Shown here: positions 37,064-43,197 of the stretch, piece by piece
Layout of the letters: the number at the start of each line of letters is the position of its first letter
How positions within the stretch are numbered: position 1 is the first letter of the stretch
Source: Winogradskyella sp.
GTDB taxonomy: Bacteria > Bacteroidota > Bacteroidia > Flavobacteriales > Flavobacteriaceae
Reading direction: 5' to 3'
Length of the DNA: 64,000 bases
Assembly: GCA_004211785.1 (NCBI GenBank)
Contig: SHBX01000002.1
Span: forward strand, 1 to 64,000
The notes under the pieces: model-generated
The model's database searches: none
Told to the model about the DNA's origin: nothing
The model's input: only the letters and a program-made list of their open reading frames with translations
Program-made: the position numbers and the translations under genes

Positions 37064-37364
37064 TAGTTACGAATTTTTAAGCTATTTGCTTGTTTTTTAA
37101 TTAAAAATAAGCGTTTAATCGATAAAAATATGTCTTTCGTCGATTAAAAGAAGCTTAGCCACTAAGTTTTGTTTAGCTTGCAGGTTCTTAAGTAAGGCCC
37201 TTAATCACTCACTCAAGAAATTTTATTAATCCATTGAAAGTCTAGCAGTTCTGTTGGATGAATTCTTTTTAGTACGGTTGTTTGGAAAATAACCCAAACA
37301 TTACTGTGTCTTATAAGTTTAAGGCACCATTAAAATGACCAATATTAAACTAAAAAGAATACTT
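37064..37364 (+). other. 301-bp gap with inverted repeats upstream of a small secreted peptide
   Basis: No convincing gene is present. TTTAATCGA at 37114-37122 and TCGATTAAA at 37140-37148 form a 9-bp inverted repeat with a 17-bp spacer. GTTTGG at 37280-37285 and CCAAAC at 37294-37299 form another. The downstream end should hold the promoter and leader of the small peptide gene. No T run marks either repeat as a terminator. Confidence 0.5.
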
Positions 37365-37535
37365 ATGAAAGCTTTAAAAATTTCCCTATTATTAGTTGCT
37401 GTTGTCGTGCTAACTGTGTCTGTTATATCTAAAGATGCTGTTGTACAGGAAGAAACAAATACTTATAAAGAGTACACTCCTAAGAATCAAGTTGTAATAG
37501 AAAGAAAAAAAGGTAAAGTTATAACTGCAGGATAA
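37365..37535 (+). CDS. Small secreted or membrane-anchored peptide
   Basis: From the ATG at 37365 the product has 56 residues: a hydrophobic N-terminal segment (LKISLLLVAVVVLTVSVIS) followed by a short hydrophilic tail ending KKGKVITAG. A start at 37335 would add 10 basic residues. I do not recognise a family. It stands alone, 110 bp upstream of the TPR sensor kinase gene, and could be a signal or partner of that kinase, which is only a positional guess. Confidence 0.5.
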   Translation: MKALKISLLLVAVVVLTVSVISKDAVVQEETNTYKEYTPKNQVVIERKKGKVITAG

Positions 37536-37645: not shown

Positions 37646-39670
37646 TTGAGAACACACTATTTTTTTGTTTTTATAGCGTTTATAGGTTTTAGTATTATAG
37701 AAGCGCAAAATCTTTCTAACTTAGATTCTATTAACAAATATTATCGGTTATTAAAAGATACTGATAGAAGTTATAAGGAAAGATTAAATTATACTAAAAA
37801 TGCAATATTCTACTCTGAAGAATTAGGCATAGATTCTATAAAGCTCAGAGTTGATAGACAAATTTCTTTAATATACTTTCATAATGAAATGTATAATGAA
37901 TATGTGACTCAAAACAGAAGAAATTTGAAATTAGCGGAAAAATTAACTGACACCTCTGCTATTACAACAGCAAGTTCAAATTTAGGGTCATACTATCATT
38001 TTATTGAACAAAATGATAGTTCATACTATTTTTATTCTAAAGCCCTAGAATTTTACGGACCAAAAACTATTTCCGAACAAAAAGTTGAAGCACTTTTAAA
38101 TTTAGCGGATATTCAACAAGTTGAAAAATCTTATTTAGGAGCAGAAGAGGATGCTGTAAAGGCAATTCAGATATTAAATAATCTACCAAAAACTGAAGAT
38201 AGACTTCATCAATATTGGAGTCTCTATAATTTGTTAGCTATCATTTCTAATGCTAATCAAGACAGGGATAAGACATTTGAATATTATGATAAATCTATTG
38301 ATTATTCTAACGAAATGAAAGATGGATTTGGATATAGAATTACTTCCATTAATAATAAGGCAAATGCTTATGAGAAGTTTGGAGATTATTCGAAAGCTCT
38401 TGAGCTATTTATTGAACTCAAAGAATTAAGACCAAAATATGATATAGATGAACCAGATTTATACCCAATAGTTTTAATTAACATAGGTAAAACTAAATTT
38501 GAGTCTGGTGTATATAAATTTACAGAAGTCGAAAACTATTTTAAAGAAGGTAGAAATAGAAGTTTAGAATTAGAAGATGAATATGTGCAAGTAGCTGCAT
38601 CTTTAGGTTTATCTAAACTGTATTTAAGGCATGATAAAAAAGAATTAGCTCGTAAGTTTGGAAATGAAACATTGAAAATATCAAATAAAATTTTCAATAA
38701 CGAATATAAAATGGAAGCCTTGTTAGTTCTATCAGATTTGTATGAAGGTGAGAAAGGAAAGAATTTTTTAAGAAGTCATATAAAATTGTCTGATAGTCTT
38801 GATATGAAAGAAAGTCTGGAAAGAAACAAATTTGCCAGAGTAAAATTTGACACAGACCAAATAGAAGCTGAGAACGAAAAAATATCTCGAGACAATTTTT
38901 ACCTACTGTTATTGTCAGCAGGACTTTTACTTACGGGGATTTTGGTATATGTGGTTATTTCGCAACGTGCAAAAAACAAAGAGCTAAAATTGGTGCAAGC
39001 ACAACAAGAGGCTAATGAAGAGATTTATAATCTTATGCTTAACCAGCAAGATAATGTAGAAGAGGCCAGAACACAAGAAAAGATTAGAGTATCTAAAGAG
39101 TTGCATGATGGTGTTTTGGGTAGATTGTTTGGCGCAAGATTAAGTTTAGACAGCCTTAACTTTTCAGAAGGGAAAGAGGCTATGATGAATCGTGCCAATT
39201 ACATTGGCCAGCTTAAAACCATTGAAGATGATATCCGTAAAATATCTCATGAGATGAATACCGATTTTGTTTCAGGTTCTGGGTTTATGGATATCGTTTC
39301 AGAATTGATAGACAACCAAACCAAAGCCTACGGATTTACCTATGATTTTAATTACACAGACGATTTTAGTTGGGAGTTTGTGCCCAATAAAACAAAAATA
39401 AATATTTATCGAATCATCCAAGAGTCCATGCAAAATACCTATAAACATGCTGAGGCTAAGCATGTTAAAATTGATATTTTAAGACAAAAAGATGAAATAA
39501 AGATCTATATTGTAGATGACGGTAAAGGTTTTGATACCACCAAATCCAAAAAAGGTATTGGCCTTAAAAATATGACCTCACGAGTTTCAGATATCGGAGG
39601 CAAAATTTCATTTTCTTCTGAGCTTGGAAATGGAACCACAGTAAAAGTAAAAATCCCCTACTCAATCTAA
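37646..39670 (+). CDS. TPR-containing sensor histidine kinase (NarL/HisKA_3 type)
   Basis: The 674-residue protein has a signal peptide (FFVFIAFIGFSIIEAQ), a periplasmic TPR array (about residues 40-400), one membrane helix (LLLLSAGLLLTGILVYVVI at about 417-435), a coiled coil, a HisKA_3 box KELHDGVLGRLFG with His487, and a C-terminal HATPase (IQESMQNTYKHAEAKH, VDDGKGFD, GIGLKNMTSR). TPR input with HisKA_3 output is common in Bacteroidota. The start is a TTG at 37646. The response regulator gene begins 19 bp downstream. Confidence 0.92.
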   Translation: MRTHYFFVFIAFIGFSIIEAQNLSNLDSINKYYRLLKDTDRSYKERLNYTKNAIFYSEELGIDSIKLRVDRQISLIYFHNEMYNEYVTQNRRNLKLAEKLTDTSAITTASSNLGSYYHFIEQNDSSYYFYSKALEFYGPKTISEQKVEALLNLADIQQVEKSYLGAEEDAVKAIQILNNLPKTEDRLHQYWSLYNLLAIISNANQDRDKTFEYYDKSIDYSNEMKDGFGYRITSINNKANAYEKFGDYSKALELFIELKELRPKYDIDEPDLYPIVLINIGKTKFESGVYKFTEVENYFKEGRNRSLELEDEYVQVAASLGLSKLYLRHDKKELARKFGNETLKISNKIFNNEYKMEALLVLSDLYEGEKGKNFLRSHIKLSDSLDMKESLERNKFARVKFDTDQIEAENEKISRDNFYLLLLSAGLLLTGILVYVVISQRAKNKELKLVQAQQEANEEIYNLMLNQQDNVEEARTQEKIRVSKELHDGVLGRLFGARLSLDSLNFSEGKEAMMNRANYIGQLKTIEDDIRKISHEMNTDFVSGSGFMDIVSELIDNQTKAYGFTYDFNYTDDFSWEFVPNKTKINIYRIIQESMQNTYKHAEAKHVKIDILRQKDEIKIYIVDDGKGFDTTKSKKGIGLKNMTSRVSDIGGKISFSSELGNGTTVKVKIPYSI

Positions 39671-39689: not shown

Positions 39690-40358
39690 ATGCAAGAATT
39701 AAAAATCTTAATGGTAGACGATCATCCTATAATTATAGAAGGATACATGAACGTCTTAATGGCAACAAAAGCCGAGAATCAAACTCTAGAAATTGACACT
39801 GCCAATAATTGCGATATGGCAGAGATAATGATTAATAGAGCAGCAAAAGATGTGCATTATGACATCTGCTTTTTTGACATTAGTCTACCACCATCTCAAG
39901 ATGGCAGATACACGTCTGGAGAAGACTTGGCAAAATTGGCAAAAACCATGATGCCAGAAACAAAGGTTATTATCTTAACCATGTTTAATGAATCTTTTAG
40001 AATACACAATATTATTAGAGAGATTAATCCTGATGGCTTTTTAATTAAAAGTGATTTAACGTCTATGGAATTGGCTGATGCATTTCAGCACATTATAAAA
40101 TCGCCACCATATTACAGTAGCACAGTACATAACTATGTAAAACAGACACTCACAAGTGAGATTTACGTTGATGATATTAATAGAAAAATACTGTACTTAT
40201 TATCTCAAGGTATAAAAACTAAAAGCTTGCTAGATCACATTGCATTATCAATGAGTGCTATCGAAAAACGTAAAAAGCAACTCAAGTTATTATTCTCCGT
40301 TGAAGACGGAAAAGACGAAACTTTACTAGAAATGGCTAAGGAAAAAGGATTTATTTAA
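39690..40358 (+). CDS. Response regulator with divergent NarL-type output domain
   Basis: The 222-residue protein has a receiver domain with acidic residues Asp10/Asp11 (MVDDHPI), phospho-acceptor Asp63 (CFFDISLP) and conserved Thr in ILTMF and Lys in GFLIKSDL. The C-terminal region (DDINRKILYLLSQGIKTKSLLDHIALSMSAIEKRKKQLKLLF) is a weakened LuxR/NarL-type HTH. It is the obvious partner of the upstream TPR kinase. Two palindromes 60-96 bp after its stop could be a target. The unusual HTH sequence makes its DNA target hard to predict. Confidence 0.9.
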   Translation: MQELKILMVDDHPIIIEGYMNVLMATKAENQTLEIDTANNCDMAEIMINRAAKDVHYDICFFDISLPPSQDGRYTSGEDLAKLAKTMMPETKVIILTMFNESFRIHNIIREINPDGFLIKSDLTSMELADAFQHIIKSPPYYSSTVHNYVKQTLTSEIYVDDINRKILYLLSQGIKTKSLLDHIALSMSAIEKRKKQLKLLFSVEDGKDETLLEMAKEKGFI

Positions 40359-40417
40359 AAAAATCACACTTTTTTCCTACTCAAAAACCTCTCAAAACCA
40401 TTGTCATTATTAAAAAC

Positions 40418-40454
40418 TACGGTTTTTCCGCATCAAGTCTACGGTTTTTCCGTA
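40418..40454. promoter_or_regulatory. Two TACGG-T5-CCGTA palindromes 22 bp apart
   Basis: TACGGTTTTTCCGCA (40418-40432) and TACGGTTTTTCCGTA (40440-40454) share 14 of 15 bases; the second is a palindrome with 5-bp arms. The 22-bp spacing equals two helical turns. The second copy is centred about 34 bp upstream of the middle of a -7 box, where an activator would sit in place of the -33 element. Confidence 0.6.
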
Positions 40455-40476
40455 ACAAAAAGACAAAATGCTTCAG

Positions 40477-40484
40477 TAAATTTG
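40477..40484 (+). promoter_or_regulatory. -7 box (TAAATTTG) without -33 element
   Basis: TAAATTTG fits TAnnTTTG. No TTTG is present 18-19 bp upstream; instead the palindromes end 22 bp before it. This suggests activator-dependent transcription beginning near 40490. Confidence 0.55.
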
Positions 40485-40489
40485 TATGG

Positions 40490-40588
40490 TCAACAAGAAT
40501 TAATTAATCCCTCTTAAGCAATTGTTGAATTAATAGCTTAAAAACCTGATAGGAAATCGACCGATGATTCTTCTGTCAGGTTTTTTTA
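40490..40588 (+). ncRNA. Candidate small RNA of about 100 nt
   Basis: A 5' hairpin TTAAGC/GCTTAA (40514-40519 with 40536-40541) is followed by a terminator-like hairpin AAACCTGA/TCAGGTTT (40542-40549 with 40576-40583) with an inner ATCG-AC-CGAT and a run of seven T. A -7 box and paired palindromes lie upstream. No sensible ORF is present. The transcript would end just before the convergent DUF456 gene. Whether it is an independent RNA or only the 3' end of the response-regulator transcript is not known. Confidence 0.45.
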
Positions 40589-40594
40589 TTTGTA

Positions 40595-41092
40595 TTAAAT
40601 CCAGCTTCCTGAGTAGTTTATGACTTTTACAATAAAAAGCCCGAGGTAAACTACGGCAACAATAAATTTTAAGAAAGTAGAGGTTACAAAGCCTAAAAAA
40701 GAACCAAAAGCTGCTTTTGTTGCTCTATTGACGTCATTTTTGTGCATCAATTCTCCAATAAGAGCTCCAACAAATGGACCAATAATTACACCAAAAGGAA
40801 TTGGTGATAAAAGACCAATAATTAGCCCTAGAGTTGTGCCTATCATTCCAGATTTACTGCCTCCAAATCGTTTGGTGCCAACAGCAGGTATAATATAGTC
40901 GAGTATAAATATAATTAGAGCTACAATAAAGGTGATGATTAAAAATGTAGTGCTAATATTTATGCCGCTAGCATAACTTAGCACAAATAAACCAGCCCAA
41001 CTGGTTAATGGCCCAGGTAAAACAGGTAAAAAGCTTCCGGCCAATCCTAAAACCATTAATAGTAAACCGGCAATGATGATAATTATTTCCAT
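40595..41092 (-). CDS. DUF456 membrane protein
   Basis: The 165-residue protein has about five hydrophobic segments, and the DUF456 features GLAGSFLPVLPGPLTSWAG (about 17-35) and GMIGTTLGLIIGLLSPIPFGVIIGPFVGALIGEL (about 82-115) with the glycine-rich repeat. The function of the family is unknown. It is divergent from the BlaI-like gene; the intervening region contains the BlaI-type operators. Confidence 0.9.
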   Translation of the reverse strand: MEIIIIIAGLLLMVLGLAGSFLPVLPGPLTSWAGLFVLSYASGINISTTFLIITFIVALIIFILDYIIPAVGTKRFGGSKSGMIGTTLGLIIGLLSPIPFGVIIGPFVGALIGELMHKNDVNRATKAAFGSFLGFVTSTFLKFIVAVVYLGLFIVKVINYSGSWI

Positions 41093-41222: not shown

Positions 41223-41582
41223 ATGAAACAACTCACTAAGGCAGAAGAAGAGATTATGCAAACCCTTTGGCAATTAAAAAAAGCCAATGTAAAATCTATT
41301 ATAGATGTTTTGCCAGACCCAAAACCAGCCTATAATACAGTCTCTACAATCGTAAGAATATTAGAGTCCAAAGGTTTTGTTGATTATGAAAAACAAGGTA
41401 AAGGCCACGTGTATTTTCCTGTTGTAGATAAAGAATTATATAGCAACCAATCAATCAACAAATTGGTAGACAACTACTTTCAAGGGTCATTTAAAAGTAT
41501 GGTGTCATTTTTTGTAAAAAAGAATGATGTTAATGTCCAAGACATAGAGGCTTTACTAAAAGAAATTAATAAAACGGAATAG
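41223..41582 (+). CDS. BlaI/MecI-family transcriptional repressor
   Basis: The 119-residue protein is a typical penicillinase repressor: winged HTH with LTKAEEEIMQTLWQLKKANVKSIIDVLP (about 3-30) and AYNTVSTIVRILESKGFVDYEKQGKGHVYFP (about 36-66), and a C-terminal dimerisation region. It represses its own operon until the partner M56 protein triggers its cleavage. Its stop is one base before the ATG of the M56 gene. No beta-lactamase gene lies in the window, so the regulated function is something else. Confidence 0.95.
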   Translation: MKQLTKAEEEIMQTLWQLKKANVKSIIDVLPDPKPAYNTVSTIVRILESKGFVDYEKQGKGHVYFPVVDKELYSNQSINKLVDNYFQGSFKSMVSFFVKKNDVNVQDIEALLKEINKTE

Positions 41583-41583
41583 T

Positions 41584-43197
41584 ATGTTGTATTATATGTT
41601 ACAAATAGTTGCGTTTCAGATTGTGTTTCTGTTGGTATATGATTTGTTTTTAAAGCGCGAAACATTTTTTAATTATAACAGAGTTTATCTCTTGGGAACT
41701 GCTGTTATATCTTGTATTCTCCCATTTATAAAACTAGATTCTATAAAAGCTGTTGCACCAAAAGATTTTGTTGTAGTGTTACCTGAGGTAATTATTGGGA
41801 ATCTGAATCCATCTACCGAATTAGATCGGCAAATAGCATTACAAGCAGGAATTGTTATGGAAGAACCAAGCATACCAGTTTGGCAAATTGTTTTATGGTC
41901 GGGTATGATTTTAACAGCTTTACTTTTTCTATACAAAATATTAAAAATCTATTGGTTAAAGTCTCAAAACCCAAAACGCTGGAAAGGCAATATTCTTATC
42001 GTTAAGCTGCTTCAGAGCAGTGCAGCATTTTCATTTTTCAATACTGTCTTTTTGGGCGAAAAAATTTCTGAAGAACAAAAACCAACGGTTCTTAAACATG
42101 AGCTAGTACATATAAAGCAATGGCATAGCATAGACTTATTACTGTTTGAGTTTATGCGAATCGCTTTCTGGTTTAATCCATTAGTGTATATGTATCAAAA
42201 TAGAATTAAAGCATTACATGAATATATCGCAGACGAAACTGCAGTAAAACAAAACGGAAAAAAGGACTATTATCGGCAATTGCTTAATCAAGTATTTGAA
42301 ACAAATAATCTGTCTTTTACAAATACATTTTATAAAAAATCATTAATTAAAAAAAGAATAAATATGTTACAAAAATCAAAATCAAAGCACATAGCACTTG
42401 TTAAGTACTTACTTTTAATTCCTGTAATTTTTTCAATGTTACTTTATGTATCATGTGAAAAAGGGGTCTCAGAAATTAATCCCGAGCAAACATTGGATTT
42501 AGAGCAATATAGTTATACAATGTCTTTAAAAAATGGTATGGATGCTGAAACAAAGAAAATTCATGATAATTATGAACATTTTCTTTATAGTAATAAAGAT
42601 TATGTGAGCTGGGCAGAAATAAACCATGAATCATATGAAATTAGTTATTCAGTACATCATAAAGATGAAAAATTATCAGAAGAATTTACTGAGACAGAAG
42701 TCAGTAATAAAGACGGTAATTCTTATAAAATGTATATGAATCTTAAAAGCCCTTTTGATTTTTTTGCCTCTCAAAAATCTAATAAGAGTGTTATGGAAAT
42801 TGAAGACATAGACCCAAGAGATTTTGACGGTAAAGGTGAAGTGCCTTATGCTGTGATAGACAAAGCGCCTACATATAATAAATGTTCAAATCTAAGTGAT
42901 GAAAAAGAGAAGAAAAAATGCACCTCACAAGAAATAGCTAAGTTTGTAAATAAGAATTTTAATATAGATTTATCAACTAAATTAGGGTTAGAAGGACGTC
43001 AACGTATATCAGTATTTTTTAAAATAAATCAGGAAGGAAATATTACAGAAGTGAAATCTAGAGCACCACATCCTGAGTTAGAGGAAGAAGCAAAGCGAGT
43101 TATTAATCTGTTACCAAAAATGGTTCCAGGAGAGCATGCTGGTAAAACAGTAACTGTTCCATATTCATTACCCATAGTTTTTCAAATTCAGTCTTAA
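41584..43197 (+). CDS. BlaR1-like M56 metallopeptidase with TonB-like C-terminal domain
   Basis: The 537-residue protein has about four membrane helices, with the zinc motif HELVH at residues 172-176 (KHELVHIKQWHS) followed by FNPLVYMYQNRIKALHEYIADE, and another helix near 275-292 (ALVKYLLLIPVIFSMLLYVSC). The C-terminal part has a TonB_C-like domain (PTYNKCSNLSDEKEKKKCTS...ISVFFKINQEGNITEVKSRAPHPELEEEAKRVI). It senses an envelope signal and probably cleaves the BlaI-like repressor. The combined peptidase and TonB_C layout is common in Bacteroidota. Confidence 0.92.
   Translation: MLYYMLQIVAFQIVFLLVYDLFLKRETFFNYNRVYLLGTAVISCILPFIKLDSIKAVAPKDFVVVLPEVIIGNLNPSTELDRQIALQAGIVMEEPSIPVWQIVLWSGMILTALLFLYKILKIYWLKSQNPKRWKGNILIVKLLQSSAAFSFFNTVFLGEKISEEQKPTVLKHELVHIKQWHSIDLLLFEFMRIAFWFNPLVYMYQNRIKALHEYIADETAVKQNGKKDYYRQLLNQVFETNNLSFTNTFYKKSLIKKRINMLQKSKSKHIALVKYLLLIPVIFSMLLYVSCEKGVSEINPEQTLDLEQYSYTMSLKNGMDAETKKIHDNYEHFLYSNKDYVSWAEINHESYEISYSVHHKDEKLSEEFTETEVSNKDGNSYKMYMNLKSPFDFFASQKSNKSVMEIEDIDPRDFDGKGEVPYAVIDKAPTYNKCSNLSDEKEKKKCTSQEIAKFVNKNFNIDLSTKLGLEGRQRISVFFKINQEGNITEVKSRAPHPELEEEAKRVINLLPKMVPGEHAGKTVTVPYSLPIVFQIQS

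Follow-up and report, generated by a model that had tools for sequence, protein, structure and literature searches.

Does the short segment that follows a response regulator (RR) gene in the genome of this marine Winogradskyella merely close an operon, or does it carry a gene of its own? The segment occupies positions 40418–40588 of the window, by which we mean the whole 64,000-nucleotide stretch of DNA analysed here. A sequence-only reading had proposed that it holds an activator-type promoter and a terminator, and that an activator, with the adjacent regulator as first candidate, switches on a small RNA. Our comparisons support that proposal, because promoter, RNA and terminator are conserved together, the RNA is found only next to an orthologue of the RR, and the spacing is rigid. 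We consider it quite probable that 40418–40588 is a self-contained small-RNA unit, most likely driven by the adjacent RR, with an RNA that acts in trans. The predicted RNA gene, its promoter layout and its linkage to the RR are established by comparison of genomes; a 5′ hairpin of the RNA, P1, is less strongly supported than these three.

Layout of the locus

The features of the locus are collected in Table 1. The palindromes, the -7 box without a -33 element and the hairpin with seven T all lie where the sequence-only reading had put them. The palindromes start 22 bp apart, or about two helical turns; the spacing to the box and the lack of a -33 element recur in aligned relatives; and 55 bp separate the end of the box from the terminator stem at 40540. 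That reading had also placed the segment correctly between the RR gene of a TPR kinase pair and a convergent gene, which proves to encode a DUF456 protein.

Table 1. Features of the small-RNA locus and its neighbours, in window coordinates
Feature	Position	Strand	Remarks
TPR-repeat sensor histidine kinase	37646..39670	+	Pfam TPR_12 + HATPase_c; start codon uncertain
Response regulator (RR), NarL/FixJ (RcsB-like) type, 222 aa, inferred activator	39690..40358	+	Pfam Response_reg
Distal palindrome TACGGTTTTTCCGCA	40418..40432	+	one mismatch to perfect; centre ~ -64
Proximal palindrome TACGGTTTTTCCGTA	40440..40454	+	centre ~ -42
-7 promoter element TAAATTTG	40477..40484	+	exactly 22 bp past proximal palindrome
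Predicted small RNA, ~100 nt	40489..40588	+	+1 placed at 40489 by published -7 numbering; fold; matches of RNA model R1
P1 5′ arm UCAACAA (DNA TCAACAA)	40490..40496	+	consensus fold; arm-swap test
Conserved loop UCCCUC	40508..40513	+	UCCCUY in most Winogradskyella
P1 3′ arm UUGUUGA (DNA TTGTTGA)	40522..40528	+	consensus fold; GTTGA counts
Conserved unpaired tail UUAAUAGC	40530..40537	+	TAATAGC counts across three locus sets
Intrinsic terminator hairpin	40540..40587	+	ends in seven T, 40581–40587
DUF456 membrane protein gene, convergent	40595..41092	-	Pfam DUF456; conserved neighbour

In NCBIfam, the kinase resembles MctS/UhpB/LiaS/NarX-type kinases, with every match below the cut-off. The RR is similar to RcsB chains over residues 2–206, its best match among solved structures; its resemblance to MctR is below the cut-off, and Pfam recognises only the receiver domain. 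Just 5′ of the kinase gene, the window has a 66-aa open reading frame with a hydrophobic N-terminus and no match in Pfam (37335–37535). Beside DUF456 lie genes for a BlaI/MecI-type repressor (Penicillinase_R) and then a BlaR-like protein (41223–43197), a pair that often adjoins the RNA locus in other genera too.

Conservation in the genus and across the family

Used as a query, 40359–40594 matches its own genome and 24 of 24 further Winogradskyella genomes (E ≤ 6.3e-12), and none of 15 genomes from other families of the order (best E 0.017). Conservation in the alignment is focused on the palindromes, the -7 box and the RNA core, with much of the spacer and the terminator variable. The RR lies directly 5′ of the RNA at all 25 genus loci, which were found by DNA similarity, and DUF456 follows in 24 of them (L004 lacks it). 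A model of the RNA core, R1, was built from 53 sequences (alignment A2). It finds a single copy in 59 of 60 Winogradskyella genomes, among them 34 of the 35 that were not used in building it; the genome without a match, G427, is 79% complete.

Over the family, 121 of 199 sampled genomes have an RR match at ≤1e-40, and 57 (56 of 198 genera) have R1 matches at E 0.01, 59 in total, three of which are in G148. In all 57, the RNA is on the RR strand, 90–297 bp beyond the RR match, and R1 finds nothing elsewhere in these genomes apart from the tandem copies of G148. One caveat to this count is that 29 of the 57 genomes contributed to the training of R1, 27 of them via loci chosen by RR position, so linkage at those 27 loci is not independent evidence; that of the other 28 genomes and of the 25 genus loci is. 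The G148 copies (contig C13; L064 104–900, the same as L044) are three tandem RNA genes, each equipped with a pair of palindromes, its own -7 box and a hairpin at the end. AUCCCUC is retained in the first and third copies; the middle copy lacks the CCCUC loop but has GUUGAAUUAAUAGC.

Twenty RR homologues without an R1 match were also inspected. Eight have DUF456 and a diverged version of the same layout (judged by eye); only 2 of the 20 show the exact palindrome-22-box pattern. One (L122) has a similar RNA tail and no DUF456 within 1 kb. In the remaining 11, DUF456 and a recognisable RNA are both missing within 1 kb, and these look like paralogues.

Beyond this sample, R1 gave four matches over 196 genomes drawn across the order with no count by family, all in the same family and none in its large genus g143. 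A pattern scan of named genomes returned at least 119 stretches; a palindrome lies within 130 bp upstream in 104 of these 119, at the exact spacing in 100. Among the matches listed are Winogradskyella, Psychroserpens, Algibacter, Gelidibacter, Formosa, Tamlana, Hyunsoonleella, Bizionia, Seonamhaeicola and relatives, together with eight clear outsiders (Gottfriedia, Liquorilactobacillus, Lachnospiraceae and others), all without the palindrome; no Flavobacterium is among the matches listed, which cover 80 of the 119 stretches. Besides the eight outsiders, the 15 stretches without a palindrome comprise two from Flaviramulus and five others.

The promoter

The pattern TRYGGN5CCRYA occurs in the window at these two places only, where 0.25 are expected from shuffled sequence and two or more arise in 3 of 100 shuffles. 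Its exact form TACGGN5CCGTA has three places in the whole 2.9-Mb genome. Comparison indicates that the locus has its own promoter: the spacing palindrome-22 bp-TAnnTTT is kept in 69 of 73 loci (the exceptions are L020, L048, L051 and L056). In 59 aligned promoters, pairwise identity is 0.82 for the half-sites, 0.41 for the 22-bp spacer and 0.82 for the -7 box, and a search of the spacer columns for a recurring -33 element found TTTG at most once and TTG at most four times per column. A distance this rigid across poorly conserved letters suggests a protein that touches polymerase from a fixed place. Upstream sites centred near -42 and -64 are classical activator positions. The centres of the two palindromes would fall at about these positions, and transcription would start near 40489, if the -7 numbering in PMC6847099 applies, which gives the flavobacterial consensus as TANNTTTG with the element spanning T-12 to G-5.

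The distal palindrome is the less constant of the two. All ten half-site letters are present in 21 of 24 genus loci and in 20 of 25 loci from other genera selected by RR, and in 1 of the 18 loci L095–L112, where this palindrome has often shrunk towards one half-site or is missing. Among the most diverged loci, L116 and L120 have TACGG half-sites around a 6-nt centre (by eye).

The RNA

The predicted 99-nt RNA has a folding energy of -25.7 kcal/mol (z = -4.4), a value that none of 200 shuffles equals and to which the terminator contributes much. The consensus fold consists of P1 (UCARCAA/UUGUUGA), a weaker inner UUAA/UUAA helix and the terminator; the inner helix, with 73.7% of alignment cells paired, is uncertain. 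A different 5′ hairpin, TTAAGC/GCTTAA, had been proposed from the single sequence. Its letters exist (40514–40519 and 40536–40541) but are not conserved, GCTTAA being found in 3 of 25 genus sequences, GCAAG in 21 and GCTTTA in one, and we have dropped it.

The hairpin with its T7 and the compensatory changes in its stem point to an intrinsic terminator. In alignment A1, 8 of 23 predicted pairs are kept with both sides changed, and all eight are in the terminator stem. The covariation that the sequence-only reading had suggested looking for in relatives is thus present in the terminator, and for P1 it is weak on A2: four pairs have both sides changed (66 of 500 shuffles reach this), and 17 of 500 shuffles reach the score and 13 of 500 the number of paired cells. 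The weakness follows from the P1 letters being so conserved. A simple terminator scan does not include the 40540..40587 hairpin in its + strand list.

P1 was also assessed by swapping arms among 76 loci. The own-arm score is 15.47, against a mean of 14.27 and a maximum of 15.02 over 300 swaps; three loci were not extracted, and the script misplaced some diverged arms. When only the 14 most diverged loci are considered, 31 of 2000 swaps reach the score of the real pairs. At L118, the arms are replaced by AACAAACCA/UGGUUUGUU.

The sequences in A2 were chosen by a script that sought ATCCCT and TAGC and left out L051 and the middle copy of L044. Invariance of these motifs within A2 therefore proves nothing, and they were recounted on loci chosen otherwise. 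ATCCCT is present in 25/25 genus loci, 28/28 RR-selected loci from other genera and 17/18 R1-selected loci; the letter after it is C in 13/25 and 28/28 of the first two sets. TAATAGC is found in 25/25, 24/28 and 18/18, respectively, and GTTGA, from the 3′ arm of P1, in 69/71 loci of the three sets together. The RNA core is conserved while the letters of the terminator differ between loci.

The RNA is without a coding frame: 24 of 25 genus RNAs have no start-to-stop frame of at least 8 codons, and L007 has one of 8, in a count that leaves out frames extending beyond the terminator. Rfam 15 (4227 models) has no match at the gathering cut-off to 40200–40800 of the window (best E 1.2) or to seven relatives.

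Other sites and the candidate regulator

A profile of palindrome, spacer and box (R2, trained on 22 genus promoters) was searched against 60 genus genomes. The RNA promoter is the top match in 58 of 60, and in 33 of the 35 genomes new to that search; the exceptions are G429, where a site before a peptidase-like gene ranks higher, and the incomplete G427. The genome search for sites ahead of TAnnTTTG that the sequence-only reading had advised thus singles out the RNA promoter, and it also shows that similar sites precede a few other genes.

Of the weaker R2 sites, 37 were inspected, and the counts are lower bounds. In at least nine genomes, a site with the same 22-bp layout lies 5′ of the gene for a HEIGH (M57) lipoprotein peptidase (one tested with Pfam, E 1e-66; the rest by eye). 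In at least ten, a site precedes an oligopeptide-type ABC ATPase gene (one tested), with 20-bp spacing and TTG. At least nine genomes, our own included, have a site before an operon of a 47-aa and a 184-aa gene, without a box at 22 bp, and at least three have one before CarboxypepD_reg-type proteins (one tested, two by eye). The two further exact palindromes of our own genome belong to this picture: the second precedes a Peptidase_M57 protein (E 7e-6), 22 bp before TAATTTTA, and the third precedes the 47-aa operon. We conclude that the RNA is the constant target of the site-plus-box promoter, but not its sole target. At L360–L367, L378 and L379, the TACGGTTTTACCACA-type site is just 5′ of a TTG/TACATTTA promoter, and the start of the ABC ATPase is almost leaderless. 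The palindrome of the 47-aa operon (L062 1791–2550; C23:26990 of our genome) lies about 100 bp 5′ of the 47-aa frame, which looks secreted, and the 184-aa gene.

What reads these sites? Fourteen genomes lack an RR match at 1e-40; in 13 of them, the top R2 match has an E of 0.011–0.38. The linkage of RNA and RR, together with these weak scores, favours the RR as the binder. The fourteenth, G090, has an R2 site at E 2.3e-5, and the 5 kb around it hold no homologue of the RR or of DUF456. This strong site (L380 near 2473; G090:C70:5172) is in a region that holds TTTAATAGCAG and AAATCCCTC in a different order. The 14 kb of our genome that hold two RR paralogues (L063) contain no TRYGG-N5-CCRYA. 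We infer that the RR binds the palindromes, that it activates rather than represses, and that transcription starts at the predicted site.

Proposed mechanism and alternative explanations

In our reading, the locus is a two-component system that has the predicted small RNA as its constant output. The TPR histidine kinase would pass a signal to the adjacent NarL/FixJ-type RR, and the phosphorylated RR dimer would most likely bind both palindromes and compensate for the lack of a -33 element. Polymerase carrying the housekeeping sigma factor of flavobacteria would then start at about 40489. The resulting noncoding transcript of about 100 nt may display its UCCCUY loop on the 5′ hairpin, followed by the single strand UUAAUAGC and the terminator. 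Its action would most likely be post-transcriptional and in trans: the C-rich loop or the tail might base-pair, or the RNA might hold an RNA-binding protein.

Two alternatives had been raised in the sequence-only reading, a distant regulator and a mere operon terminator. In the former case, the RNA gene is real, but a different transcription factor recognises the palindromes and the RR just happens to be adjacent. Binding by the RR is indeed a prediction, its own genome encodes paralogous RRs (C31, 43% and 39% identical), G090 has a good site and no RR match at the threshold, and the distal site decays in lineages that retain the RR. Nevertheless, the RNA is beside the RR in 57 of 57 R1-positive family genomes, 28 of which the model had not drawn on, the site is missing from the 14 kb that hold both paralogues, and a strong site is absent from 13 of the 14 RR-negative genomes; we regard another factor as unlikely. 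Alternatively, the segment could be only the 3′ end of the kinase–RR operon, serving as its terminator or yielding an RNA by cleavage of the 3′ UTR. Between the RR stop and the palindromes, the window offers no convincing terminator (-2.7 kcal/mol for the best candidate), and the same holds for most of the seven relatives examined, with L034 as an exception at -6.6; read-through could contribute. Yet a mere terminator has no need of the fixed palindrome/-7 architecture, tandem copies carry promoters of their own, and the core is kept where terminator letters vary, which makes this explanation very unlikely.

It is also conceivable that the palindromes are a repressor operator, through which the regulator turns the RNA off, since sequence alone does not give the direction of control. 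Repressor sites more often overlap the region from -33 to +1, which counts against this reading, and the positions predicted here, -42 and -64 ahead of a -33-less promoter, fit activation; we think repression quite improbable. As for chance palindromes beside an unrelated hairpin, with no gene at all, such palindromes do arise at random at the rate given above, but fixed spacing and conservation across dozens of genera refute the idea, and its probability is close to nil. Activation by the adjacent RR remains the reading that we prefer.

Relation to known systems

GacA is a regulator of NarL/FixJ type with a palindromic upstream site. In its wiring, our candidate would work like GacA and RsmY/RsmZ, with a NarL/FixJ-type RR gene and palindromic sites upstream of the RNA. 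CsrB/RsmY-type RNAs are defined by repeated unpaired GGA motifs for CsrA/RsmA. We looked for such repeats and found that the conserved loop is UCCCUY and that the one conserved GGA seen is confined to a single group of loci, in the loop of the terminator. The likeness to GacS/GacA-RsmY/RsmZ thus lies in an RR that drives small RNAs as its main output, and not in serial GGA loops or in an Rfam family; moreover, the RNA gene here adjoins its RR, the phylum differs, and in some species other genes also carry sites. Response regulators also activate small RNA genes in RcsB-RprA and LuxO-Qrr, and RcsB is the best sequence match of this RR in the structural database. These RNAs are unrelated to the Winogradskyella RNA. 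In enterics and vibrios, pairing is Hfq-dependent, and LuxO is sigma-54 dependent.

GacA of P. aeruginosa is said in PMC4866733 to act exclusively through RsmY and RsmZ, and the duplicated Rsm RNA genes of P. brassicacearum (PMC7911923) resemble the triplication in G148. Closer to hand, Rfp18 of Flavobacterium psychrophilum, the one studied flavobacterial small RNA that our literature searches brought up, is conserved and contains stem-loops, and two metalloproteases depend on it for normal mRNA levels (PMC9723704). Compared by description, the likeness is this tie to metalloproteases, since in some Winogradskyella M57 metalloprotease genes share the promoter site. Small RNAs of Bacteroides thetaiotaomicron act on gene expression, according to PMC7366714; they share the phylum with our RNA, and comparison through Rfam gave no match. 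Literature searches found the palindrome string in no paper, nothing that matches the RNA locus, and no regulator of a flavobacterial small RNA. The present locus gives both halves: a predicted operator and start site, and a predicted RNA, found by profile in 56 genera. Because they are predicted together, the wiring is testable in one knockout.

Possible targets and function

A first physiological guess, the scavenging of protein and peptides, comes from the additional sites ahead of M57 peptidase and oligopeptide-ABC genes. Tentatively, and with rather less than even confidence, we picture a Bacteroidota counterpart of Gac/Rsm: a TPR-kinase/RR pair with a small-RNA hub as its constant output across dozens of genera, which might titrate an RNA-binding protein via the UCCCUY loop or pair with many mRNAs, and which in some species might share its control with proteolysis outside the cell and the uptake of peptides (M57 peptidases and an oligopeptide-type ABC ATPase). 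Members of the phylum are without Shine-Dalgarno sequences and yet retain the anti-Shine-Dalgarno sequence, as described in PMC6847099, so a C-rich loop need not act here as it does in other bacteria.

The loop complement GAGGGATTAAT occurs 102 times across 41 genus genomes; 19 of these occurrences are the RNA gene itself. Among 40 of the 83 others that were inspected, 38 lie within open frames, and only three pairs are common to two genomes (L323/L325, L327/L348 and L336/L346), none of them right at a start codon. No target emerges from these sites. In our own genome, the leader of the C23 palindrome operon has TTAATTAATTAAATCCCTT just before the start codon; its resemblance to the RNA loop suggested that shared leaders might act as decoys. 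This idea is unsupported: in the 60-nt stretches that precede 253 intergenic starts (464 kb of our genome), ATCCCT occurs once, against 1.65 expected. The leader of this 47-aa operon, TTAATTAATTAAATCCCTTGAATT-ATG, resembles the loop.

Finally, the terminator loop shows a sequence feature of its own. In 16 of 46 RR- and R1-selected loci (L095, L097, L099 and 13 others), the loop reads GGAGGUGAGAGACC without change while the stem beneath it varies. Part of this loop, GGAGGUGA, would match the anti-Shine-Dalgarno sequence of 16S rRNA. Each of 5 carriers searched has a single occurrence of this 14-mer, at the RNA gene, and neither of 2 non-carriers has it.
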